11,484 nt of DNA from Acidobacteriaceae bacterium. Its GTDB lineage: Bacteria; Acidobacteriota; Terriglobia; Terriglobales; Acidobacteriaceae. The DNA lies in NCBI GenBank assembly GCA_003139975.1, contig PLHN01000504.1:15624-27107 (forward strand). The letters are read 5' to 3'. How positions within the stretch are numbered: position 1 is the first letter of the stretch; each line of letters starts with the position of its first letter. Of this stretch, positions 1 through 11,484 are shown one piece after another. A model generated the notes under the pieces. The model worked only from the letters and a program-made list of their open reading frames with translations, ran no database searches and had not been told where the DNA came from. The position numbers and the translations under genes were made by a program.

Positions 1-353
1 CAAAACATTTTGGCGACCTCACCGGCAAGCCGGGTTTGCGGACCGATCTCGAACCCTTCGTGGAGTTGCTTGGCGACCGCCTGCTCCACAAAATCGGGAC
101 GGTGCCCGAGCATGATCGGGCCGAAGCCGTTCAGAATGTCGATGTATTCATTGCCGTCTACGTCCCACAAGCGCGACCCCTGCGAGCGCAGGGTCACGAT
201 GGGATATACGATCTCCTTCCACTGGACGCGGAAGCCGGAGACGACACGCGGATCGGCGAGTTCTGCGCGGTGCTCTTGCGTGAAGCTCTTCGATTTCGCG
301 GTGCGCCGGACGTACAACTCGATCAGCTTGCGCAATCCTTCTTCCTGTTGCGG
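1..353 (-). other. Aminotransferase (AMT) domain, N-terminal part, within the PKS
   Basis: Residues 1165-1281 of the PKS match the start of the glutamate-1-semialdehyde-type (class III) aminotransferase fold: a helical lead-in (TPQQEEGLRKLIELY), a YPI segment, the GSRLWDVDGNEYID strand and LNGFGPIMLGH, then GPQTRL. Known examples fused after an ACP (MycA and ItuA of the iturin family, McyE of microcystin) convert a beta-ketoacyl-ACP to a beta-aminoacyl-ACP with an amino acid as nitrogen donor. The PLP-binding lysine would be about 200 residues further on, beyond the left edge, so catalytic competence cannot be judged here. Confidence 0.9.
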
Positions 354-3300
354 GGTCACGTTGCCGGAGATGCCTTTTTGCGGCGGCTTATAGGGGCCGA
401 AGGGCTTGAACTCCTCCTTCGGCAACACGATCGGAGCTGTCGTTGTTTCGGCTACCTGAGTGGACGCGGGCGCGCTGGGCGCCTTCACAACCGGCGCAAC
501 CGGAGGAGCAGTGGCTGCGGGTGCGGGCACAGTTGTGGGTGCGAGGGTCGTAGTCGCAGCACTCGATCCGCGCAGCGCGTCGATCTGCTGGGCAAAGAGC
601 TGATTCATCGCCTGAAGCTGTTCGCGCATCAGGCGTTCAACCGGAGATTCAGACATGGAACTATCTCCACTTCCCGCCGCTACCGGCATGGGCCGAATCG
701 CGGGCGCCGATACCTGCACAGATGTGGGAGCCGCAACGACTGTGGGAGGGGCCGCTGCTGGCGCTGTTTCCGCCATTACATCCGCTGGCAATTGTTTGTC
801 GAGGAACTCGGAAAGCGCATCCATGCTGGAAAGGTCGCCGAGCAACTGGCGAAATGTAACCTTCACCCCGAACTTCGCCGACAAAGCCTGCGTTACCTGG
901 GTAAGAAAGAGCGAGTCGAAACCCATTTCAAGAAAACTTGTCGAGCCGACAGCCTTGGAGACATCGACCCCGGAAAGGTCTTCGAAAATCTCACAGAGAA
1001 CGCTGGCTATTTTCGTCAACCTCGGTGCGGCCAAGGTTGCGGGCGGTCGCGGATTTGCATTCACGATTGTGTTTTCCTTCCCAGAAGGGACTTCTGCAAT
1101 GAAATATTCTGCAGCAGCAGCAGCCGGTGCGGCCGGCTGCGCCAGCGCAGATCTGTCTGAAGCGGGAGCCTCGATCCAACAGCGCTTTCGTTCGAAAGGA
1201 TAGGTGGGCAGCGAGACCTTTCCTCTTCGTTCATCACCGTGAAGCTTGCGCCAATCGGGTTGCGCTCCGGCGAGCCAGAGAGAGCCCAGCGCGTTCATCA
1301 CACTTGAGACATCGCCTTCGCCGGAAAAACCGTCGGTCAGCGAAGAGACTATTGGTTGGTCGGCGGATGCGCCCAGCTGTTGCCGGGCCAGCGTGCCCAG
1401 AACGTTGCCCGGGCCGACCTCCAGATGGATGCTGTTGGGCTTCGTCCGAAGCTTGGCCAGGCCGGATGCAAATTGCACTGACTGGCGGAAATGCCGCGCC
1501 CAGTAAGCCGGATCGGTCGTTTCCTTCTCTGTAATCCATTTCCCCGTCACAGCCGAAACGTAGGGAATCTCGGGCGCATGGAGGCGAACCTGCGCCACGC
1601 GCTTGGTAAAGGGCTCGACGATGGGATCCATCATCGAAGAATGGAAAGCATGAGAAGTGACCAGGCGGCGCGAAACCACGTTCTCCGCAGCCAACTTGCG
1701 CTCCAGTTCTTCGATTTCATCTAATGGTCCGGAAACCACACAAAGGGAAGGTGCGTTGATGGCGGCGATGGACAGATTTCCCGTCAACCGCGCGCGAAGC
1801 TCGTTTTCCGGCAAACGCACGGAGAGCATGCCTCCACGCGGCAGATCCTGCATCATCCTTCCCCGGGCAGCCACCAGCGCGAGCGCGTCTTCGAGCGAAA
1901 ACACGCCCGCCAAGCAGGCGGCCGCAAACTCCCCAATGCTGTGCCCAAGCATGCCGGCGGGCTGAATGCCCCAGCTCATCCAGAGTTGCGCGAGCGCGTA
2001 CTCAATCGTAAAGATGGCCGGCTGCGCAATGACAGTATCTGTGACCTTGCGCTTGGCTTCTTCGGAGGCGCCATCCTGCGGATACAGCAGATCGCGTAGA
2101 TCGGCACCCAGGTGCGGCCGCAGAATCTCGGCACACCGATCCACCGCTGCCTTGAAGACCGGCTCGGTTTCGTATAACTCGCGGCCCATGTTCGGGTGTT
2201 GCGAGCCTTGTCCCGGGAACAGAAAGCACACACCCGGATTTTCCAGGGGACGTAAGCGCGTCTGCACGCGCTTGCGATCACGCTGTGCAATATTCGTGAT
2301 CGCCTCGGGCACATCGCGGGCGATGATCGTCCGGCGGCAAGGGAAAGCATGACGTCCAGTTTGGAGAGTCCAGGCAACGTCTGGCAGAGATAGGTCGAGA
2401 TGTGACGACAGATACTCCCCAAGATTCGAGGTTGCTTTATCGAGTGCCGCCTCAGACCGGGCCGAAAGGACCAATAACTGCATCGCGCGCGAGGAAGCCG
2501 CCTGCGGCCGTTCTGGCGCCTGTTCCAAAACCACGTGCGCGTTGCTTCCGCCTACGCCAAATGCGCTGACGCCGGCGCGGCGCGGTCCGTTTTTCTGCTG
2601 CCACTCCTTGCGGCTGGCGTTCACGTAAAACGGACTGTTCTCCAACTCAAGTTTTGGGTTCGGCCTTTTGAAGTGCAGGGTGGCCGGATAGATGCCGTTG
2701 CGCACCACGTGCACGGCATGAATGAACCCGGTGGCGCCGGCTGCGATATCCAGATGCCCGACATTTGTTTTAGCCGTGCCTACGGCGCAAAATTGCTTCG
2801 CCTTTGTGTGTGCACGAAATGCCTGGGTGAGCGCGGCGATCTCGATCGGATCGCCCAACGGTGTTCCTGTGCCATGCGCCTCGATATAGCCAACCGTCTC
2901 GGGCGAAACTCCCGCGACCGCCTGTGCCATCGCCACCACTTGAGCCTGGCCCTCGACGCTCGGCGCCGTGTAGGCCACCTTGCTCGAGCCATCGTTGTTC
3001 ACTGCGAATCCGCGGATCACCGCATAGATCTGGTCGCCATCGGCGACCGCGTCTTCGAACCGCTTCAAGAGCACAACTGCCGCGCCGCCCCCAAATACCG
3101 TTCCGTTGGCGTTCTCATCGAACGCGCGGCAATGGCCGTCGGGCGAGGCCATGCCGCCGTCCTGATAGAGGTATCCGCGTTTCTGCGGAAAAGTAACGGA
3201 AACTCCGCCCGCCAGCGCCATGTCGCATTGATAGGTCTGCAGGGATAGCGCTGCCTGGGAGATGGCCAGCAGCGACGACGAGCAACCCGCAACCATCGTA

Positions 3301-3845
3301 AAGGCCGGTCCCTTCAGGTTGAACTTGTAGGCAACGCGCGTAGCCAGGAAATCGACGTTGCTGCCCAACAGCACCGGGTAGTTCGCCACCTGGTATCCAG
3401 CGACGTAGTCTTCGACAAATCGCCGGTCACGGCACACATGATTCAGGAAGTACGTGCTCGTGCTGCATCCCGCATAAACACCGGTCATGCCGGGCGTATT
3501 CATGGGATCGCAGCCGGCATCTTCGAGCGCCTCCCAACAGATCTCGAGGAAGAGGCGATGCTGCGGGTCCATGAGTTCCGCTTCTTTGGGATAGAGGCCA
3601 AAGAACGCCGCATCGAACTGGTCGACGTCGTTCACGATCGGGCGCGCGGCCACATAGGCCGGGTCTTTCACCGCTTCCGCGGCGTTCGCCACCTCCAGTT
3701 CATCCGCGCGGAAATGAGTGACCGACTCGATGCCCGCCAACTGGTTGCGCCAGAACTCGGCTACGTTGCGAGCTCCCGGGAAGCGGCCCGACATGCCTAT
3801 GACTGCAATCGCGTTGCTAAGATCCTGTGGTTTCTGATTGCTCAT
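1..3845 (-). CDS. Type I polyketide synthase with C-terminal aminotransferase, KS-AT-ACP-AMT (partial, 3' end beyond left edge)
   Basis: I translated this frame by hand: 1,281 codons with no stop to the left edge. The ATG (3843-3845) overlaps the NRPS stop as ATGA, suggesting translational coupling. Domains: ketosynthase at about residues 11-440 (active-site Cys188 in an unusual VAGCSSS context, His324 in HGTGT, His364 in NVGH); acyltransferase at about 540-830 (GHSIGE with Ser636, and HAFH at 732-735, the malonyl-CoA signature); a post-AT linker ending in TYPFERKRCW; ACP at about 945-1015 (phosphopantetheine Ser978 in GFDS); a 120-residue Ala/Pro/Thr linker; then the start of a class III PLP aminotransferase (about 1165 on, LWDVDGNEYIDILNGFG). 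No KR, DH or ER is present. The expected reaction is malonyl extension of a carrier-bound acyl or aminoacyl group, then beta-amination. In known relatives a condensation domain and PCP follow; here that part, and the AMT lysine, lie outside the window. Family assignment is secure; the product is inferred. Confidence 0.95.
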   Translation of the reverse strand, partial: MSNQKPQDLSNAIAVIGMSGRFPGARNVAEFWRNQLAGIESVTHFRADELEVANAAEAVKDPAYVAARPIVNDVDQFDAAFFGLYPKEAELMDPQHRLFLEICWEALEDAGCDPMNTPGMTGVYAGCSTSTYFLNHVCRDRRFVEDYVAGYQVANYPVLLGSNVDFLATRVAYKFNLKGPAFTMVAGCSSSLLAISQAALSLQTYQCDMALAGGVSVTFPQKRGYLYQDGGMASPDGHCRAFDENANGTVFGGGAAVVLLKRFEDAVADGDQIYAVIRGFAVNNDGSSKVAYTAPSVEGQAQVVAMAQAVAGVSPETVGYIEAHGTGTPLGDPIEIAALTQAFRAHTKAKQFCAVGTAKTNVGHLDIAAGATGFIHAVHVVRNGIYPATLHFKRPNPKLELENSPFYVNASRKEWQQKNGPRRAGVSAFGVGGSNAHVVLEQAPERPQAASSRAMQLLVLSARSEAALDKATSNLGEYLSSHLDLSLPDVAWTLQTGRHAFPCRRTIIARDVPEAITNIAQRDRKRVQTRLRPLENPGVCFLFPGQGSQHPNMGRELYETEPVFKAAVDRCAEILRPHLGADLRDLLYPQDGASEEAKRKVTDTVIAQPAIFTIEYALAQLWMSWGIQPAGMLGHSIGEFAAACLAGVFSLEDALALVAARGRMMQDLPRGGMLSVRLPENELRARLTGNLSIAAINAPSLCVVSGPLDEIEELERKLAAENVVSRRLVTSHAFHSSMMDPIVEPFTKRVAQVRLHAPEIPYVSAVTGKWITEKETTDPAYWARHFRQSVQFASGLAKLRTKPNSIHLEVGPGNVLGTLARQQLGASADQPIVSSLTDGFSGEGDVSSVMNALGSLWLAGAQPDWRKLHGDERRGKVSLPTYPFERKRCWIEAPASDRSALAQPAAPAAAAAEYFIAEVPSGKENTIVNANPRPPATLAAPRLTKIASVLCEIFEDLSGVDVSKAVGSTSFLEMGFDSLFLTQVTQALSAKFGVKVTFRQLLGDLSSMDALSEFLDKQLPADVMAETAPAAAPPTVVAAPTSVQVSAPAIRPMPVAAGSGDSSMSESPVERLMREQLQAMNQLFAQQIDALRGSSAATTTLAPTTVPAPAATAPPVAPVVKAPSAPASTQVAETTTAPIVLPKEEFKPFGPYKPPQKGISGNVTPQQEEGLRKLIELYVRRTAKSKSFTQEHRAELADPRVVSGFRVQWKEIVYPIVTLRSQGSRLWDVDGNEYIDILNGFGPIMLGHRPDFVEQAVAKQLHEGFEIGPQTRLAGEVAKMF
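420..785 (-). other. Long Ala/Pro/Thr-rich interdomain linker with an embedded helix, within the PKS
   Basis: PKS residues 1021-1142, between the ACP and the AMT, are low in complexity and rich in Ala, Pro, Val and Thr. The middle is different: residues 1068-1091 (starting PVERLMREQLQAMNQ) carry regularly spaced Leu, Met and Phe, as expected for an amphipathic helix or short coiled coil. This looks like a flexible tether with a possible oligomerisation or docking helix. The function is inferred from composition only. Confidence 0.6.
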
Positions 3846-5764
3846 GAAAGTTGTCTCACGCGCCGCTGCTGTTCTAGTGCCCGCTGTCTCTTGCTGATTC
3901 TGTCTGCGATATCATCGCCAGTGAATTGTGGCTTGGTTTGCCCCTCTAGATACTTGCCGAGCGACCGGATAGAACAGTACTGGAACAAGTCCGTAACTGA
4001 AAACACGCGCCCTAAAGCCTCTTGTAACTCAGCATGCACCTGCACAAGAAGGATCGAATCGCCACCTAAATCGAAGAAGTTATCTGTCGGACTAAGTTGC
4101 GCCACTCCGAGGATCCGGCTCCATATTGAAGAAATGATTGCTTCCATTCCACTCATTGGTGGCAATCCGCCAGGGAAAGGTTCGTTACTCGTCGGAGCGG
4201 GCAGCAGACTGCGATCCACCTTGCCGTTCGCGTTGAGTGGAAGGGACTCCAATATCAAGAAAGTAGAAGGCAGCATATGCGCGGGCAGAAAATTCTCGAC
4301 CGCAGCGCGCAGGTCGCCCGGCTGCAATTGAAGCCCAAGGTCGGGGACAACATAGGCCACCATTTTCTTCTGGCCGTCCACTTCGACCGCATCGACCACG
4401 GCTTGCTTCACGCCGGGCTGCCGGATCAAAGTAGCTTCGATTTCACCAAGCTCGATTCTTTGTCCATTAATTTTGATCTGGCGGTCGATTCTGCCCAGGA
4501 ACTCGATTTCGCCGTCGGGCATCAAACGCCCACGATCGCCGGTGCGATAAATCCGCTCACCGGTGCGCGGATGCACTGCGGTGCGGGCCGCCGTCTGGTC
4601 CGGGTTGCGCCAATAGCCTTTCAGCAATCCGACCCCTGCGCAGCACAGCTCTCCCGGCGCACCCGCCGGGCACTCGTTCAGGTTTTGATCCATTACGTAG
4701 TAACGCGTGTTTGCGATCGGGTGCCCATACGGAATGCTCTTCCAATCGGGCGGCAGTTGCTTGACCGGAAACCAGATGTTCCAAACGGTGGTTTCGGTCG
4801 GGCCGCCCACACTGACAACCTGCACGTCACCAAAATGCTCGCGAATCCGCGCTGGGGCGCTCAGTGGAATCCAATCGCCACCAAGAAATGCCAAGCGCAG
4901 CCGATCGCGCAGCACCAGCTTTCGAGCCGCCGCGTGAACCAGCAGCATCTCCATAAAAGCAGGCACCGAATTCCACACCGTGACGCCCAGCTGGTTAATC
5001 AGATCGACCCAATGGTCGGGCGAGCGCGTGCCATCGCGTTCCGGCATCACAATGCTGCCGCCCGCAGCCAGAATGCCAAAAATGTCATAGACCGACATAT
5101 CGTGGTGCAGGGCGGTTACTGCCAGAGCGCGATCATCGGCCTTCACGCTAAAGGCGCGATTCGTTTCCAGGATGCAATTGACTAACCCGCGGTGGCCAAT
5201 CATCACGCCTTTTGGCTTTCCCGTGGAACCGGAGGTGTAAAGAACGTAGGCAATGTCTTCCGGAGTCTGCCTGCGAGCGAGTGGCTCCGCATCGCCTGCC
5301 AGCAAACCGGGCTGATCGACCGACACTCGCGCGACGTTCCCAGGCCATTTCAGCCTCTCGTCCAGCCATGACTGCGTCAGGACAACCTCGACTTCCCCGT
5401 CCTCTAATAAATAACGCAAACGGTCGGGCGGAACATTCGCGTCCATTGGCAGGTAAGCGGCGCCTGCCTCAAGAGCGCCCAGCACCCCAACAACCTGCTC
5501 CCAGCCCTTGTCCATTACGATCGCGACCAGCGTATTGGGCTTGACGCCAAGGGCCCTTAGTCGATGGCCAAGCATGCGGGAAGCGGAAAGCAGCTCGCCG
5601 TAGGACAGTCCACCAGACACAGAAATGACTGCGGGCCGCTCCGGTGCGCGCATCGCCTGTGCGACGAACAGGTCCTGCGCCAGACAGTCCGGAAAGTCGA
5701 AACCGGGCTCGGTTGAGGACTGTCCTGCGAGTTCAAGCGGATTCATGGGCTTTGGGGAATTCAT
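3842..5764 (-). CDS. Nonribosomal peptide synthetase loading module, adenylation-PCP
   Basis: This 640-residue protein activates an amino or other carboxylic acid as its adenylate and loads it onto its own carrier domain. Adenylation motifs appear in order: LSYGEL (53-58), GAAYLPMD (101-108), LYTSGSTGKPKG (175-186), HHDMSVYDIFG (220-230), GGPTETTVW (320-328), YRTGD (406-410), the INGQRIELGEIE region (432-443) and NGKVDR with Lys515. The PCP carries Ser570 in DLGGDS. There is no condensation, epimerisation or thioesterase domain, so it should act first. By motif alignment the pocket residues are D222, M223, Y226, N265, F293, G295, V319, V327, W328 and K515; the pattern recalls Cys/Gly/Ala-type pockets but matches none I know. 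The C-terminal 24 residues are highly charged and could be a docking tail for the PKS. The ATG at 5762-5764 has only a weak Shine-Dalgarno sequence; Met7 is a less favoured alternative start. Confidence 0.95.
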   Translation of the reverse strand: MNSPKPMNPLELAGQSSTEPGFDFPDCLAQDLFVAQAMRAPERPAVISVSGGLSYGELLSASRMLGHRLRALGVKPNTLVAIVMDKGWEQVVGVLGALEAGAAYLPMDANVPPDRLRYLLEDGEVEVVLTQSWLDERLKWPGNVARVSVDQPGLLAGDAEPLARRQTPEDIAYVLYTSGSTGKPKGVMIGHRGLVNCILETNRAFSVKADDRALAVTALHHDMSVYDIFGILAAGGSIVMPERDGTRSPDHWVDLINQLGVTVWNSVPAFMEMLLVHAAARKLVLRDRLRLAFLGGDWIPLSAPARIREHFGDVQVVSVGGPTETTVWNIWFPVKQLPPDWKSIPYGHPIANTRYYVMDQNLNECPAGAPGELCCAGVGLLKGYWRNPDQTAARTAVHPRTGERIYRTGDRGRLMPDGEIEFLGRIDRQIKINGQRIELGEIEATLIRQPGVKQAVVDAVEVDGQKKMVAYVVPDLGLQLQPGDLRAAVENFLPAHMLPSTFLILESLPLNANGKVDRSLLPAPTSNEPFPGGLPPMSGMEAIISSIWSRILGVAQLSPTDNFFDLGGDSILLVQVHAELQEALGRVFSVTDLFQYCSIRSLGKYLEGQTKPQFTGDDIADRISKRQRALEQQRRVRQLS

Positions 5765-5892: not shown

Positions 5893-7116
5893 TCAGAAGC
5901 CTCTTTTCACAGCGAGGTACGGAATCAGAAACAATTCGGCGACGCCGGGAAGAGGGTCCTCGAGGCTGAATACCGCTTCCGTCCGGCACATTCCCAGCGA
6001 ACGGAGATAGCCTCTGGGGCCCATGCTTCCCGCCAGAAACTCCAGACACACTGTAGGAATATCGGTGGTCGCTCGCATCCAGCCGACGCCGGGCCGCGCC
6101 TTAACCGGCGAAACTGGGAGTCCCATTTGGTCCGCGAAGAGCATGTAGCTGAAATCCACTCCCGCGCTGGCACCCAGCGTATGATACCCCCACGTGCGCG
6201 CATTGACATCGAGCATCTTGAATTTCCCGTCACGCGGATCTAGTTTGTACTCCAGTTCGACCAGGCCGTAATAATCGATCGCCCTCAGAAAGCGCTCCGA
6301 CATCTCTTCCAGTTCAGGCTGCTCAATGGTTTCGACAAATGTGCTCGCCCGCCCGAATTGCAGCGGATGCTGCCGTCTCCTCTTTGCCACCATGCTGCCA
6401 ACGGCCTCGCCCGCGCGGAAGAAAGCGCAGTAAGAATATTGCTGGCTGCCTCCGCCGGGAATGACTTCCTGCACCATCACTTCGCCCGGCCCCACGATCT
6501 CGTAAGCCTTCTGAAACAGCGTGCGCAGTTCGGCGTGGCTTTCCGCGCACCATGCCTTCACCCGGGTCGCATAAACAAAGTGTTCCTTGATTGCCGGCTT
6601 GATGGCAAAAGGCGGAGCCAGTTCGTCAAACTGCTCCAGTTCCGCAACGCTGCTGGGATACCATGTCGCGGGGATCGGGATCCCCAACTGGGCCGCGAGT
6701 CTATAGGTATTTCGTTTGTCCCACGCCCATTGCACGCTCTCCCATTCCGGGGTCGGAACTCGAAATACCTGGCTCAGTTCGTCGCGATAGCGCGATACCG
6801 CGGCTACCAGCTCATCGCGCGTGGGGTAAAGCAGCCAGCCCTCCAGCCCGAGTCTGCGGCCCAGACTTAGTAACTCGTCGACGGTATGGCGCTCATCTTT
6901 TAAATTAGAAAAGCGTATTGCCCTGCCGGCATAGCGAGAATAGCGGGCAATCGAGTGCTCGTCGTCGACGATGCAGGTGGGAACGCCGTGTCTTCCCAGA
7001 CTCCGGACAATCCCCAGTCCCTGATAATCGCCGCCGAGAACGACTGCTCCGGCTATCTTGGTGCCGAAGCGCTCGCTTGCGCTCCGCTCGAGCAGCGCGC
7101 TGGTCGCATTAGCCAT
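5893..7116 (-). CDS. ATP-grasp family ligase (predicted carboxylate-amine ligase)
   Basis: This 407-residue protein has the layout of the ATP-grasp superfamily. A preATP-grasp Rossmann-like domain covers about residues 21-120 (AVVLGGDYQGLGIVRSLGRHG). The ATP-binding core follows, with AIKPAIKE (Lys173, Lys177), VQEVIPGGGS (216-224) and the metal-binding stretch LVELEYK (Glu287, Glu289) through MLDVNARTWG (Asp303, Asn305). Such enzymes use ATP to make an acyl-phosphate and join a carboxylate to an amine or another nucleophile; the nearest broad group is the predicted ATP-dependent carboligases often found in polysaccharide loci. The substrate cannot be read from the sequence. Its ATG lies inside the 3' end of the monooxygenase gene (8-bp overlap), so the two are probably translated together. 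It could form an amide between the assembly-line product and an amino sugar, or act in glycan modification only. Confidence 0.85.
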   Translation of the reverse strand: MANATSALLERSASERFGTKIAGAVVLGGDYQGLGIVRSLGRHGVPTCIVDDEHSIARYSRYAGRAIRFSNLKDERHTVDELLSLGRRLGLEGWLLYPTRDELVAAVSRYRDELSQVFRVPTPEWESVQWAWDKRNTYRLAAQLGIPIPATWYPSSVAELEQFDELAPPFAIKPAIKEHFVYATRVKAWCAESHAELRTLFQKAYEIVGPGEVMVQEVIPGGGSQQYSYCAFFRAGEAVGSMVAKRRRQHPLQFGRASTFVETIEQPELEEMSERFLRAIDYYGLVELEYKLDPRDGKFKMLDVNARTWGYHTLGASAGVDFSYMLFADQMGLPVSPVKARPGVGWMRATTDIPTVCLEFLAGSMGPRGYLRSLGMCRTEAVFSLEDPLPGVAELFLIPYLAVKRGF

Positions 7117-8299
7117 TTCCGTTTGCCGCTCCGTTCGCGCGGCTCACAAAGCGCGCCAGTTCCGTAGATGCAAACTCCGTCCCCGAAACAAAACCCAACA
7201 GCGGCCCAAAACTCCACGATGCCGTCTTACCCACAAAATGGAGTCCCGGAATCGTGCTTTCAAAACCTCGCTTGAGGACCGGAAATCCATTTACGGTCCG
7301 AAGGCGCGCTAAAAGTGAGGGCGGCAGAAAACCGTAACGGCTCAGATCCACGCGGAATCCCGTGGCCAGCAAGCAATGGTCGACGAAGCGCTCGCTGCCG
7401 TCGTCCAACTTGAGGTGCACGCCACTTCCCTTTTCCGCCGCCTGCAGAACCGTGCGGCCCAGGGAGATCGTTATGTCCTTTAACCGCGGTTGTAACCAGG
7501 CCGCGCCTGCGGGACGAATGGCGCGATAGGCGACCTTATCCTGAAACTCCCGCGGAAAGCGGCGAAACACGTGCGGTGCCGCCACCAGCCGGCTGATTCC
7601 CGCCGGTCCTACGTCGCGATTCGAGTAGAACAGTTTCGAAATCGGACCCAGATGATGCAGACGAGCGTGCAACCCAACCCAATTCAGCGACGATTCGCGC
7701 ACCAGCACTTCGGGCTGCGCTCCCGTTTCTTTGAGTAGCGCCGCCGACTCCAATGCGCTCTGTCCCCCTCCGATGACGGCGACTTTCTTTCTTTTGAACT
7801 TGCTCAAATCGCGATGATCCGCGGCATGCGAAGCTAGTTCTTTTGGAAGAGCCGAATATTCCTCTGGCAGGTAGGCAAACGGGCCAATCCCTCCAGCGAC
7901 TACCACGCGCCGGGAAGTGAACTGTTCCCCGTCCGACAAACTCACAAGGAAATCCCGTCCGCTCCGCTGCAGGCTGGTCACCTGCCGAGGATCGACATCG
8001 GGCACCGCGTGCCTCTGATACCAGAGCCCATAGTCCACAAAGCGCTTCAGCGGAATCGGCTTTCCAAAGTGATTCCCTTCGGCGTTCCGGAAAGCATCGA
8101 GGCTGAGTGTGCCCTTGGGATCCGCAATGTGCGATGCCTCCCAATTCGAGCGCAGGAGCATCCCCGCGGGCATCTGCTCCGCCCAGAACGCCATGGGCGA
8201 TCCGAATACGCGTACCTCAACACGATGCGCGCGTAAGAAATTGGCAGCCGCCAAGCCATACGGCCCCGCTCCGATCACGGTTACATTGCAGCCTGACAT
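7109..8299 (-). CDS. FAD-dependent, NAD(P)H-binding monooxygenase-like oxidoreductase
   Basis: This 396-residue protein has two dinucleotide-binding folds: FAD site VIGAGPYG (8-15) and NAD(P)H site VIGGGQSALE (175-184). A late ATGFRVD motif (312-318) is also present. Just before the second fold, SHAADHRD (157-164) resembles the flavin-monooxygenase fingerprint around its conserved His, in a degenerate form. This places it among flavin-containing monooxygenases and the lysine/ornithine N-hydroxylase relatives. Members hydroxylate amines or sulfur, or oxidise carbonyls; the substrate here is unknown. No signal peptide or membrane segment is seen, so it should be cytosolic. The ATG at 8297-8299 follows a GGGAGG Shine-Dalgarno site with a short 3-base spacer. 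The C-terminal ANGAANGNG tail is low in complexity. An N-oxidation step on an amine made by the neighbouring synthase is plausible but unproven. Confidence 0.88.
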   Translation of the reverse strand: MSGCNVTVIGAGPYGLAAANFLRAHRVEVRVFGSPMAFWAEQMPAGMLLRSNWEASHIADPKGTLSLDAFRNAEGNHFGKPIPLKRFVDYGLWYQRHAVPDVDPRQVTSLQRSGRDFLVSLSDGEQFTSRRVVVAGGIGPFAYLPEEYSALPKELASHAADHRDLSKFKRKKVAVIGGGQSALESAALLKETGAQPEVLVRESSLNWVGLHARLHHLGPISKLFYSNRDVGPAGISRLVAAPHVFRRFPREFQDKVAYRAIRPAGAAWLQPRLKDITISLGRTVLQAAEKGSGVHLKLDDGSERFVDHCLLATGFRVDLSRYGFLPPSLLARLRTVNGFPVLKRGFESTIPGLHFVGKTASWSFGPLLGFVSGTEFASTELARFVSRANGAANGNG

Positions 8300-8346: not shown

Positions 8347-9726
8347 CTAGCCAATAACCGAACCTGGAACCTTCGCCTGCGAGGGGACCCGACTGTAGAC
8401 CAGTTGCCCGTCGCGTTCCGTGGCATAGGCGATGCTCGCCCGCTCGTTGCCTGCGCCTTCAATCCGCAACAACCCATCTTCTTCAATAATTGTCATTTCG
8501 GCGCGCTGTCTCCACCAGCGATTCACTTTGCCCGGCGTTGTGATCCAGACGTTCTGTTTCTGGCGCAGTTCGACCAAATGACTGAGGAGAGCCTCGTAGA
8601 CGGCTCGCTCCCGGGGACCGGTAATGTAATCGGGATGGATGATCACGTTGATCAAGCCGTGCTTCTCCATGATCAACTCGATCTGCTGTTCCCACAATTT
8701 GGTGGAGTAATCGTTCAGGATGTTGAACAGCGTGTAGTCCTGTGTCATCGTTACCGGCAATTCCAGCACGTTGCCAACAAAGTACGGCATGACTGTGCAG
8801 CAACCGCCTCGCTGCGGATCGAGATGGGCCACGTTGGGAACGGACGTGTCGTATTCGAAATCCAGCGCGTCGAACCACTGCTGGTTTCGATAGAGGATCC
8901 CCGCCCGGAATCCTGCCGCGCCAAATTCCTTGCCGTACGCATTAATCTTTTTTGCGCGCTCCATAAACTGTTTTCGTTCATGGAACAAGCGCCCATCATG
9001 GTTCAGGTCGTGCACGACAACCTCGAAACCGCGTTGGCGCAGGGAATCCAGAAACTCCTTGGTCACGTGGTAGCGATGCTCCGGTATCACCTGGAAAGAA
9101 GCGCTGATCCCGAACGAGTCATTGATGTCCATGATCATCGGGCAAAGATCTATGCCTGACGCGGTCTCGATATCGTGGGTCACCAGGGCCGGACTGGAGG
9201 CATTGTCGGGCCAGAACCAGATAAATGGAATTTCTTTCAGGTTCTCTGCTCTGAGTATCATGAGCAGGACTTGCTCCATGAGATTGTCCACGGTCCGATC
9301 GACCGGCCAGTGCGGGAACGGCAAGCGTTCCCAATTGCGCAAACGAAAGCTCTGCAGATGCTTTCGGATGGCCACCGGCAAAATCGGTCGCACAAAGTAG
9401 TATGCGGCAGTAATCGCAGGCATCAGCCCCCTCTGGCTGCCTTTCATGTAGGCCTCTTGCCGGAGGGAGTCTACTATTTCCGTAGGGTCGAAAGGCAGGT
9501 AGACGACGCCGTTCTTGACGCTGGCCTCCGCTACTTTGTTTTCCGAGAGATTGACGGGAGTGTTTGCTGGCTGACCGTTCACGCGGCCGAATAGCGTGTT
9601 CCCGTCGAAGCGAAAATAACCGCGACTCGCCGACAGCGAACCAGTCGATGCAAACCGGCCATACTGTTCGGGATATCGAAAATACTTGAGCACGCTGCTA
9701 TTCACCGATGTCGGGGCCCGCTCCAA
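8347..9726 (-). CDS. Polysaccharide deacetylase-like protein, divergent NodB-fold family
   Basis: This 459-residue protein has a weakly conserved N-terminal region (1-175) followed by a NodB-like barrel. THDIE (183-187) stands where ordinary NodB enzymes have TFDDG. The metal-binding pair fits HxxxH: His239 and His243 in VHDLNHDG. GFRAG with Arg274 and downstream Trp284 fits the third motif, and IIHPDY (His364) fits the C-terminal catalytic-His motif. A metal site of Asp185, His239 and His243 is therefore possible. The expected role is removal of N-acetyl or O-acetyl groups from a sugar, although the altered first motif may mean a different substrate. The start is TTG: an in-frame TAG lies 6 bases upstream and a GGGAGG site precedes it at good spacing. 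A 90-residue C-terminal extension after His364 ends in short beta-like repeats. No signal peptide is evident. Confidence 0.82.
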   Translation of the reverse strand: MERAPTSVNSSVLKYFRYPEQYGRFASTGSLSASRGYFRFDGNTLFGRVNGQPANTPVNLSENKVAEASVKNGVVYLPFDPTEIVDSLRQEAYMKGSQRGLMPAITAAYYFVRPILPVAIRKHLQSFRLRNWERLPFPHWPVDRTVDNLMEQVLLMILRAENLKEIPFIWFWPDNASSPALVTHDIETASGIDLCPMIMDINDSFGISASFQVIPEHRYHVTKEFLDSLRQRGFEVVVHDLNHDGRLFHERKQFMERAKKINAYGKEFGAAGFRAGILYRNQQWFDALDFEYDTSVPNVAHLDPQRGGCCTVMPYFVGNVLELPVTMTQDYTLFNILNDYSTKLWEQQIELIMEKHGLINVIIHPDYITGPRERAVYEALLSHLVELRQKQNVWITTPGKVNRWWRQRAEMTIIEEDGLLRIEGAGNERASIAYATERDGQLVYSRVPSQAKVPGSVIG

Positions 9727-9791: not shown

Positions 9792-10667
9792 CTACTTCCG
9801 CGCCAAGCTTGCTTGCAAATCGCGGCCTTTTCCGGCGGCCGGCGCCGAGAGAAGAGTGCGCTTGAGCTTGTATGCCAATGGCAGCCACCGGTAGGCGCCC
9901 AGTAGTTTCAGGCGGAATTCCAGCGGCCAATCCGTGGGCTCCACGCTGACTCGGCCAACCGCAAACTCTTCAGGATCGGAAAATGCGATTACCGGCAAGG
10001 TTGTAAAAACCCGCTCATACCCGGTATCACGGCACCATTCCACCAATTGCGCGTTGAAGTCGCCGTAGGGAAAACTGAAAGTCTTCACCGGACGTGCCAA
10101 CAACTGTTCCAACTTAATTCGCGATTCAGAAAGCTCCCGGCGCGCGTTCCCCTCCGCCAGAGAGGGAAGTCGTGGATGAGTTAGAGTATGGGACCCGACC
10201 GAGATCAACTCCGCAGGCAACTGTTGAAGGCGCTCCGCCGATGCCAGCCGTTCGCAGCGCTCGGGCGCAGACTCAGGCCACCAACTCGCGCACTCGCCGA
10301 GCAGATCTGGCATGGCGAAGATGGTCGCCGGTATGCCTCTTTTCGTGAGCTCAGGAACGGCGTTCCGAATCGTGTTCTCAAAGCCATCATCGAACGTAAC
10401 CGCCGAATACCTTCTGTCCGGAAGCATCGGTACAACGCGATCGACAGAGATGGGTTCTGTTAGTCGGCGAATCAGATCCATCTGCCCAGCGAAGGCCTGG
10501 CGCTCTTCATCTCTGACCGCGTGATAGTAGACAACGACGCATGTCGGGCGCGGCTTTTTGCCAAATGTCGAAAGAGCCAGGCGCCACCCGGAGTCGATGG
10601 TGTAGAACGCAAGACTGACGAACAAACTCAGCACGCGTCTGAACTTGCTGTAAGCGCTTCGAGCCAT
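9792..10667 (-). CDS. NodB-type polysaccharide deacetylase
   Basis: This 291-residue protein carries clear carbohydrate esterase 4 motifs: TFDDGF (91-96; catalytic Asp93, metal-binding Asp94), SHTLTH (159-164; metal ligands His160 and His164) and FSFPYGDF (198-204). These enzymes remove acetyl groups from N-acetylated sugars. The C-terminal motif that usually holds the second catalytic His is replaced by a VGRVSVEPTDW stretch with no His, as in many glycan-locus members. The N-terminal residues 11-35 are hydrophobic with basic residues ahead of them, so membrane attachment is possible, although no clear cleavage site is seen. The ATG at 10665-10667 starts 18 bp after the glycosyltransferase stop and has no good Shine-Dalgarno sequence, so coupling to that gene is likely. 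The family call is firm; the substrate is not known. Confidence 0.92.
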   Translation of the reverse strand: MARSAYSKFRRVLSLFVSLAFYTIDSGWRLALSTFGKKPRPTCVVVYYHAVRDEERQAFAGQMDLIRRLTEPISVDRVVPMLPDRRYSAVTFDDGFENTIRNAVPELTKRGIPATIFAMPDLLGECASWWPESAPERCERLASAERLQQLPAELISVGSHTLTHPRLPSLAEGNARRELSESRIKLEQLLARPVKTFSFPYGDFNAQLVEWCRDTGYERVFTTLPVIAFSDPEEFAVGRVSVEPTDWPLEFRLKLLGAYRWLPLAYKLKRTLLSAPAAGKGRDLQASLARK

Positions 10668-10685
10668 AAGTCAGATATTGTTTGA

Positions 10686-11484
10686 TTATTGCTGCGACAA
10701 AGAACGCTTGCCCCTGTCCCGTGCCGCGGCCGCGGCTACGTTGGGAAGGATGCCCAGAAGTGCCGACAAACTGGTGCGTAAAGTTTGACACTGCTCGTGC
10801 CTTAAGAAGCGCACCTGGTCTTCGGAAACTTGCCTTTCTTCCTTTCGCCAGTATCCGGCGGCAAACCCGGCCAGTCGGCTGAGAGCCCCAACTAAATAAG
10901 GCCGGCGATGTAAGCTGACAATGCATTTCGCCGCCTCAAAGGCTGGGTGACTCCCCAGCGAAAAAGCCGCCAGCCCAGCCCGGTACAAGTACCGCACCCG
11001 CCCGCTAACGCTCCCGGTTGGCCGGCGATGATGTGCGGGAACGTCGGGAAACGACTCGACTTGCCAGCCATGCATGCGCGCCGAAATCTCAGCGCACCAA
11101 TCTGGAGCACCGTAGCGCAGCGGAATATAGCCGCCAATCGCCAGGAAGCACTCCCGCCGAAAAAGCTGGATGCCGTGAGGAACGCTGGTAGCGCGATTCC
11201 CTTTCCTGGGACTGAACTTCACACCGTCATTTTCAAATAACCATCCTCCAGCCAGACCCAGGCTGGGTTCTGCCTCAAATTTGCGGAACAGTTCGCGGAA
11301 ATACGACGCTTCAAACGCGATATCTGAATCCACATTGCCGATAAAATCAAATTCCACGCCGCTCTTCAGCAAGAGATCGAAGCCAGCATTGATCGCGCGG
11401 GCCTGTGCGCCAAAATCAGGCGCATGTTTCTTCGAGAGTTGCAGCAGTTGAATGAAGGTGCGTTTCTGCGCGTACTCCTGAACG
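10686..11484 (-). CDS. Family 2 glycosyltransferase (partial, 5' end beyond right edge)
   Basis: The frame is open to the right edge, and its visible 265 residues lack the true start. A TTG at 11370-11372 can look like a start, but coding similarity continues upstream of it (AQARAINAGFDLLL), so it is internal. The GT-A metal-binding DxD appears as NVDSD at visible residues 50-54. GGWLF and GGYIPLRYGAPDWCAE follow, the latter matching the acceptor/base region of GT2 enzymes, then a HHRRPTGS segment. The enzyme should transfer a sugar from a nucleotide donor to a glycan or lipid acceptor in the cytoplasm; donor and acceptor are unknown. The C-terminal 100 residues are basic with scattered hydrophobic stretches and no clear multi-pass membrane domain. 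It is the first visible gene of the minus-strand run. Confidence 0.88.
   Translation of the reverse strand, partial: VQEYAQKRTFIQLLQLSKKHAPDFGAQARAINAGFDLLLKSGVEFDFIGNVDSDIAFEASYFRELFRKFEAEPSLGLAGGWLFENDGVKFSPRKGNRATSVPHGIQLFRRECFLAIGGYIPLRYGAPDWCAEISARMHGWQVESFPDVPAHHRRPTGSVSGRVRYLYRAGLAAFSLGSHPAFEAAKCIVSLHRRPYLVGALSRLAGFAAGYWRKEERQVSEDQVRFLRHEQCQTLRTSLSALLGILPNVAAAAARDRGKRSLSQQ

Follow-up and report, generated by a model that had tools for sequence, protein, structure and literature searches.

A separate A-PCP protein ahead of a KS-AT-ACP-aminotransferase synthase in an acidobacterium suggests a route to a 3,4-diamino acyl chain

MycA and its relatives, the iturin, puwainaphycin and microginin synthases, carry an aminotransferase of the Aminotran_3 family (AMT) next to an acyl carrier protein (ACP). 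The MycA AMT performs the beta-amination of an ACP-bound beta-keto chain with glutamine as the amino donor (PMC3870968). The same pairing of AMT and ACP occurs in a hybrid synthase encoded in the stretch of acidobacterial DNA analysed here, the window (11,484 nucleotides, G000:C441:15624-27107, from a genome that is 73% complete). In MycA-type systems an acyl ligase or a fatty acid feeds the ketosynthase (KS), whereas in the window an amino acid-type protein made of an adenylation (A) domain and a peptidyl carrier protein (PCP) stands before it. With AT for acyltransferase and C for condensation domain, we take KS-(AT)-ACP-AMT-C-A-PCP to be the order in the mycosubtilin, iturin, puwainaphycin and microginin synthases. 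In our locus, KS-AT-ACP-AMT lie in one chain and are followed by C-A-PCP, as befits an ACP-AMT hybrid synthase.

Closer counterparts have been described. Table 2 of PMC3870968 (2013) gives C6XWU5 of Pedobacter heparinus the order A-CP-KS-AT-CP-PLP1 and the predicted product Nrp-Mal-Gly-Pk, and the same source lists longer forms in Salinisphaera and Thiorhodococcus. C6XWU5 shares its domain order with the window, with glycine predicted next, but is fused where the window has a separate loader gene; in the part of the source available to us it is a table row without a product. Its layout, a C-less A-PCP directly before KS-AT-ACP-AMT, is the one found in the window. For OA858_07105 of Pseudanabaena galeata (C-A(Val)-PCP-KS-AT-ACP-AMT), transfer of an aminoacyl group to the KS, malonyl extension and transamination have been proposed (PMC11356792, 2024). 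OA858_07105 resembles the window in its GHSI and HAFH motifs and in this route, but differs in having an N-terminal C domain, in being fused and in its predicted valine; the accessible text of that source speaks of a beta-amino moiety and names no vicinal diamine. Athmu-type systems (floridanemamide, pahayokolide) also place an A-domain loader upstream of a polyketide synthase (PKS) with an AMT, but use an alpha-keto acid starter, a ketoreductase (KR) in the loader, three extensions, and an AMT together with a monooxygenase (PMC13252402). For the beta-amino residues of cyanobacterial peptides, the accessible text of PMC13252402 sets out three ways of starting, none of them with an amino acid.

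The initial annotation had described a C-less A-PCP joined by ATGA to a KS-AT(malonyl)-ACP-AMT protein without reducing domains, and Pfam matches, motifs and the gene junction confirmed this description. The features are as follows.

3842..5764, minus strand: A-PCP loading protein, 640 aa, no C domain (Pfam; orthologues at 70-74% in G210 and G365)
4220..5662, minus strand: adenylation domain A1, residues 35-515, code read as DMYNFGVVWK (Pfam and alignment)
3947..4135, minus strand: PCP of the loading protein, residues 544-606, GGDSI motif at 4046-4066 (Pfam, motif)
3845..3910, minus strand: basic C-terminal tail of the A-PCP, last 22 residues, net charge +5, a proposed docking helix
3842..3845, minus strand: ATGA overlap of the A-PCP stop and the PKS gene start (TCAT on the plus strand)
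3..3845, minus strand: hybrid synthase, 1281 aa within the window, left edge cut by a scaffold gap (intact orthologue in G210)
2343..3815, minus strand: ketosynthase and its C-terminal linker, residues 11-501 (Pfam, motifs, trees)
3273-3293, 2862-2882 and 2748-2771, minus strand: KS motifs CSSS, HGTGT and NVGH, respectively
1377..2225, minus strand: acyltransferase, residues 541-823, GHSIGE at 1926-1946 and HAFH at 1635-1652 (Pfam, motifs)
801..1001, minus strand: ACP, residues 949-1015, GFDSL serine motif at 903-923 (Pfam, motif)
3..203, minus strand: first part of the aminotransferase, Aminotran_3 (Pfam; the part with the pyridoxal phosphate (PLP) lysine lies left of the window, in L011)

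The A-PCP protein matched AMP-binding (residues 35-385), AMP-binding_C (441-515) and PP-binding (544-606), no condensation domain was found in its 640 residues by Pfam, and it scored 424 bits against the NCBIfam amino acid adenylation domain TIGR01733 (cut-off 317). The KS match proper covers residues 11-392, with linker families beyond it. Chance matches are excluded by E-values of 1e-60 to 1e-90 for KS, AT and A and by the conservation of these genes together elsewhere. From GHSIGE and HAFH we take the AT to be of the malonyl type. Neither the window synthase nor its G210 orthologue contained KR, dehydratase or enoylreductase families (Pfam). Because only a fragment of the AMT (about the first 67 residues) lies inside the window, its Aminotran_3 start (1215-1263) reached 30.3 bits, just short of the Pfam cut-off of 30.5; the continuation (101.5 bits) and the G210 orthologue (173.9 bits) were well over it. 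The PLP lysine, on which the initial annotation had made its reading depend, was found outside the window in the continuation to the left (TYGK, L011 15181-15183), and likewise in 26 of the 26 related AMTs read.

The contig extends 15.6 kb to the left of the window. A 2-N scaffold gap at contig positions 15622-15623 falls inside the AMT, at the window's left edge; since the G210 orthologue has about 17 residues at the same place, the AMT break is most likely an assembly gap. Beyond it lie the rest of AMT-C-A-PCP, with a second 2-N gap within the A domain, and then a 1337-residue protein ending in a thioesterase (TE):

L011:7342-11355, left of the window: terminal protein C-C-PCP-TE, no A domain

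In G210 the orthologous synthase is a single open KS-AT-ACP-AMT-C-A-PCP frame of 2742 aa from stop to stop, 73-80% identical, and G365 has the same three genes, interrupted by gaps. The A-PCP gene directly precedes the KS gene in all three genomes. The terminal proteins of G210 and G365 have the same A-less layout and, as in our contig, a first C domain reading HHSVIDY, which departs from HHxxxDG. Their TE motifs contain a cysteine (GYCMG in the window's contig, GYCLG and GYCMG in G210 and G365), and in the genus g4 the motif reads GYS[FY]G in 12 of 13 loci, none being read in L073.

We consider it likely that an aminoacyl-PCP feeds the KS and that malonyl extension and the AMT then yield a 3,4-diaminoacyl chain. 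Feeding by an aminoacyl-PCP is suggested by fused A-PCP-KS forms, a KS tree, the basic tails of separate loaders, and the retention of the A-PCP beside terminal modules that have an A domain of their own. In the KS tree, one split (local support 1.0) separated the query and all 87 PCP-fed KS (the query's side) from all 23 acyl-fed KS. Labels were given by what precedes each KS: 39 of the 87 are fused in cis, and the 48 labelled by a neighbouring gene partly presuppose the point in question, which the 39 do not. The count omits 14 unlabelled KS (10 on the query's side, 4 outside), and two KS were set aside by hand, L168 (query's side; an A domain with methyltransferase and PCP) and L172 (acyl-ligase-like, outside a tighter split); in L179, a control labelled as acyl-fed, the A-like domain that precedes the carrier is FAAL-like (fatty acyl-AMP ligase-like) by Pfam. 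The set included 29 KS from five related genomes (eight searched; 30 loci, L191 being too short). Adding 20 more KS left the split unchanged, with 19 on the query's side and the PKS-fed L239 outside. Identity to the window KS was 46.6-82% on the query's side versus 37-43% outside, and KS following FAAL or acyl-ligase-like domains (L139, L158, L160, L172) were 39-42% identical and outside the window's clade (L172 for the tighter split only). The query's side also took in PCP-fed KS for which no AMT was seen, so clade membership goes with the donor rather than with the AMT. The position of the window KS in the PCP-fed clade is what the initial annotation had asked of an aminoacyl-accepting enzyme. 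Of its proposal, the feeding of the KS by an aminoacyl-PCP thus gained support from fused forms, clade and PLP lysine, while the vicinal diamine stays a prediction.

An FAAL or acyl ligase identity of the loader was considered and rejected, the amino acid A family being over its cut-off and PF23024 occurring in the FAALs used for comparison. This FAAL C-terminal family was not found in the window loader and is present in L139, L158 and L160; among ten other A-PCP loaders scanned (L102 and nine more), all had AMP-binding_C and none had the FAAL family.

A-PCP proteins encoded by separate genes have a mean C-terminal tail charge of +4.7 (n=34; +5 in the window), fused A-PCP-KS linkers a mean net charge of +0.9 (n=39) and KS-gene starts one of -2.8 (n=32). 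The sequences compared are related, so the p-value of this comparison is no fair probability, and the counted L141 tail is an artefact of open reading frame (ORF) calling; a frame break in a fused gene probably produced it. Basic tails are also found on pairs of A-PCP and KS genes without an AMT. Four loci, L037 (G362:C86), L038 (G253:C316), L039 (G210:C29) and L040 (G220:C185), show another conserved pair in this family, a standalone A-PCP followed by KS-AT-(...)-PCP-TE with no AMT; they have basic A-PCP tails and an upstream gene of 586-612 residues.

Gene order, domains, motif residues, conservation and the KS clade split were read directly from the sequences, and the chemical steps proposed from them are as follows. 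The A-PCP would activate an alpha-amino acid, most likely threonine, and hold it on its PCP; its basic tail, judging by the charge pattern, would dock on the KS protein. The KS cysteine would take the aminoacyl group, and decarboxylative condensation with malonyl-ACP would give a 4-amino-3-oxoacyl-ACP, an intermediate suggested by the KS clade, the AT type and the absence of reducing domains. Transamination of the 3-keto group by the AMT would then produce a 3,4-diaminoacyl-ACP (3,4-diamino-5-hydroxyhexanoyl-ACP if the starter is threonine), to which the C-A-PCP module would add glycine, the code read in the G210 orthologue. The C-C-PCP-TE protein might add the last residue, perhaps a glycine loaded in trans by the second A domain, before release.

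Several points weigh against this scheme. The start of the window's KS gene is not acidic (net charge 0). The A1 code is not identical to any threonine signature, and in its specificity region A1 comes closest to A domains of Cys/Ser-type modules (6lta, BmdB, dihydroaeruginoic acid synthetase). The window's own AMT is interrupted by the 2-N gap, and the terminal module lacks an A domain and begins with the HHSVIDY C domain. The share of loci with an adjacent A-PCP (50 of 80, below) is biased, these loci being the best matches to the query type. Among the nearest relatives outside the genus (G183, G255 and G092, each with an AMT 78% identical to that of the window), G183 and G255 run in the order 459-residue protein, FAD oxidoreductase, ATP-grasp, KS gene, with neighbours 50-68% identical to those of the window and no A-PCP between; both encode, at another site in the genome, an orphan A-PCP that has a basic tail and the code DALLLGGTFK. 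G163 has no adjacent A-PCP within the stretch examined, and the window's own genome holds another standalone A-PCP with a similar basic tail at C517. The orphan proteins of G183, G255 and C517 mean that the donor could be another A-PCP, and the relatives without an adjacent A-PCP lowered our confidence both in the route and in the 3,4-diamino family discussed below.

One reading of these relatives is that the KS is fed by a different A-PCP of the genome (for example G000:C517), the adjacent one being a recent addition or having another role. G183 and G255, which keep neighbours and synthase without the adjacent gene and have an orphan A-PCP with a basic tail, favour it, as does the similar tail at C517; we nevertheless regard it as unlikely, because the A-PCP lies directly before the KS gene in the window (by ATGA), G210 and G365, and because fused relatives show an adjacent A-PCP as the loader elsewhere. 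In G183 and G255 themselves the aminoacyl donor is likely to act in trans, since their KS belong to the PCP-fed clade, and the A-PCP between ATP-grasp and KS gene in the window, as against none in these two, represents the gain or loss of a loader. The initial annotation had named a further loading protein in the complete locus as a danger to its view: no other loader was present among 16 ORFs scanned on the contig, but C517 and the lack of an adjacent A-PCP in G183, G255 and G163 keep part of that concern. Within the window the neighbouring A-PCP is the most parsimonious donor, though others are possible. The orphan A-PCPs L041 (G000:C517), L248 (G183:C17) and L249 (G255:C291) each follow a gene of 564-575 residues, and no KS was called beside them within the stretches examined.

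The three-protein set holds two A domains and three PCPs, which, with the A-less C-C-PCP-TE protein, would suit a different role: the A-PCP could be a trans donor for the terminal PCP, with the KS acyl-primed as in mycosubtilin-type synthases. We find this quite improbable given the fused A-PCP-KS forms, the window KS in the PCP-fed clade and a tail resembling those of A-PCP and KS pairs without an AMT. Moreover, the A-PCP is retained in G040 and G034 (L075, L076), although the terminal module there has an A domain itself. The terminal A domain of L075 and L076 also reads as glycine, so the second A domain may, as a tentative suggestion, load both PCPs in the A-less forms. The AMT gap and the departure of the terminal first C domain from HHxxxDG could also be seen as marks of a synthase degraded in its host and making nothing. 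This is very unlikely, as the core motifs are present, the G210 frames are intact at 72-80% identity and both breaks in the synthase gene coincide with 2-N gaps.

The identity of the starter was approached through the A1 code, which was read by alignment on a position mapping that we assume; such codes depend on the alignment, L231 being read both as DFWNIGMVHK and as DFWQIGMVHK. Among 24 separate A-PCP loaders from other genera of the order, 20 read DFWNIGMVHK or DFWNVGMVHK, which are threonine-type (13/13 in the first set of loci, 7/11 in the further set), and the other four have a DAFWLGGTFK-like code, which we take to be Val/Ile-like. Outside the order, threonine-type loader codes are rare (L106, L138, L165). 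The window's A1 is about 34% identical to the threonine-code domains of the order; if both take threonine, this specificity was reached twice. In L230 (G092) the usual positions are swapped: the loader code is DAFWLGGTFK, and the threonine code DFWNIGMVHK is found in the second A domain.

We give threonine about an even chance of being the A1 substrate. A starter such as cysteine, serine, alanine or another small amino acid, a sub-question that leaves the route as it is, seems to us somewhat less than evenly poised. It is favoured by the A1 specificity region, nearest to 6lta (presumably FmoA3, which we take to use an alpha-methylserine) and to BmdB and dihydroaeruginoic acid synthetase (both of which we take to use cysteine). 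However, A1 differs at positions 299 and 301 from the cysteine codes DLYN[LMW]SLIWK of PMC12283262, the nearest printed signature found, DMFNFGVLWK (8/10 identical to A1), is grouped with threonine in the part of that source available to us, and threonine-type codes occur in the 20 of 24 relatives of the order. PMC12283262 gives DILQLGMIWK, the code of the second G210 A domain, as a glycine signature, and 29 of 54 second A codes in the best 80 loci start with DILQ.

A loader for an alpha-keto or alpha-hydroxy acid, as in Athmu-type systems, would give a 3-amino-4-hydroxy acyl chain and no vicinal diamine. The window loader has no KR by Pfam, carries an aspartate at the code position that we take to bind the amine, and has relatives with known amino acid codes. 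Such loaders have been proposed for AMT-containing synthases (PMC13252402), but with these features we hold one here to be most improbable.

The distribution of the layout was surveyed by an AMT alignment scan of genome contigs from which the best 80 named loci were kept, a query-biased set whose shares are no census. The AMT query matched 56/397 genomes of the order in 16/80 genera (E <= 1e-100), 24/396 genomes of the phylum sample (E <= 1e-70) and 3/24 genomes of the genus. Before the KS, the best 80 loci had a fused A-PCP (33), a separate-gene A-PCP (17), C-A-PCP (4), a PCP without A called (3), FAAL (3), an acyl-ligase-like domain (1) or a PKS (1), and 18 were unjudged by the script; in six loci no AMT ORF was called, seven had no KS before the AMT and five had nothing upstream of the KS. 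For L104, L107 and L118, whose A domain is truncated at the edge of the locus, a preceding C domain is possible. The A-PCP loci among these 80 include Rhizobium, Variovorax, Lysobacter, Rhodanobacter, Pedobacter, Mucilaginibacter, Winogradskyella, Spirosoma and Nostoc. Among the first 14 loci taken from other genera of the family, 13, all of them in genus g4, have the three-gene order A-PCP / KS-AT-ACP-AMT-C-A-PCP / TE-ending protein, also present in G210 and G365, and the fourteenth (G026) has a PCP fused ahead of the KS. In 20 further loci of the order, the KS is preceded by an A-PCP gene in 11, by a fused PCP in two, by a C-A-PCP, a C-A-PCP-C-C-PCP or a PKS gene in one each and by nothing of this kind in three (L228, L229, L233), and one (L235) begins at the contig edge. 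In five loci (L085, L097, L242, L246, L126) the KS-AT-ACP-AMT protein begins with a PCP for which no A domain was called; here the loader must act in trans or was missed.

The initial annotation's view of the order as unusual and perhaps undescribed did not survive this survey, with an adjacent A-PCP in 50 of the best 80 AMT loci and the layout already in the accessible parts of PMC3870968 and PMC11356792. We regard the window as a separate-gene variant of a known layout for which no product was found described in the literature searched, the predicted acid having been searched by name phrases only. Negamycin, in the portion of its source available, holds the 3,6-isomer of the predicted diamino acid.

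As a tentative proposal, a little short of an even chance, the window may belong to a broad family, spread over Acidobacteriota, Pseudomonadota, Bacteroidota and Cyanobacteriota, whose products would be short peptides with a 3,4-diamino acid at their head. If so, the head group in most acidobacteria (threonine starter) would be 3,4-diamino-5-hydroxyhexanoyl, whose carbon skeleton is that of a 3,4-diamino-2,3,4,6-tetradeoxy sugar, and Gly or Gly-Gly would come next; the linear Gly-Gly form would be C10H20N4O5, [M+H]+ about 277.15 by hand calculation. The route would be a biosynthetic way to vicinal diamines, useful in medicinal chemistry and metal binding, and a fourth starter mode for AMT synthases beyond the three in the accessible text of PMC13252402. 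Common, chemically unread clusters could then be read as an amino acid, two carbons and an amine in fixed sequence, with a single small A-PCP protein choosing the starter residue. A stand-alone A-PCP that carries a docking tail should also lend itself to assay or exchange. Finished genomes in the family, probably of cultured strains (G054, one 5.66 Mb contig), make the prediction testable.

Upstream of the A-PCP gene lie three further genes.

5893..7116, minus strand: ATP-grasp protein, directly upstream of the A-PCP gene
7109..8299, minus strand: FAD/NAD(P) oxidoreductase, overlapping the ATP-grasp gene
8347..9726, minus strand: 459-residue protein, no Pfam match

Homologues of the ATP-grasp protein lie directly upstream of the cluster in G365 (57%), G183 (68%) and G255 (54%), and those of the oxidoreductase follow in the same order (55%, 65% and 50%). 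Given this shared order, the two genes (5893-8299) are probably pathway genes of the window's sub-lineage. For the 459-residue protein, the next gene in the series encodes a homologue in G183 (60%) and G255 (52%); the G210 homologue (66%) lies immediately upstream of the A-PCP gene.

At the far end of the window (9792-11483) are a polysaccharide deacetylase and a partial glycosyltransferase-like gene without a Pfam match. To the left, beyond the terminal protein, the contig carries genes for a Cupin_8 protein, an aldo/keto reductase, a VanZ protein and a B12-radical SAM protein, and sugar genes. The deacetylase, the glycosyltransferase-like gene and the sugar genes together look like an exopolysaccharide neighbourhood. 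A special link of AMT loci with exopolysaccharide genes was unsupported (Glycos_transf_2 8 versus 3, Bac_transf 5 versus 3) in a comparison of 112 flanking ORFs from AMT loci (116 drawn of 240) with 112 from other loci of nonribosomal peptide synthetases (123 drawn of 134), a control made impure by L217 and L218, which adjoin AMT clusters. No member of a 4'-phosphopantetheinyl transferase-like family, which adjoins the cluster in 32 of the 67 loci compared (for example L073, L112, L147), was grouped from the window's contig. Of 66 other loci compared, 15, among them Caballeronia and Nostoc, have a homologue (E <= 3e-29) of the Cupin_8 gene (L011:6302-7303) next to the AMT cluster, and the Cupin_8 protein is a possible hydroxylase of the pathway.

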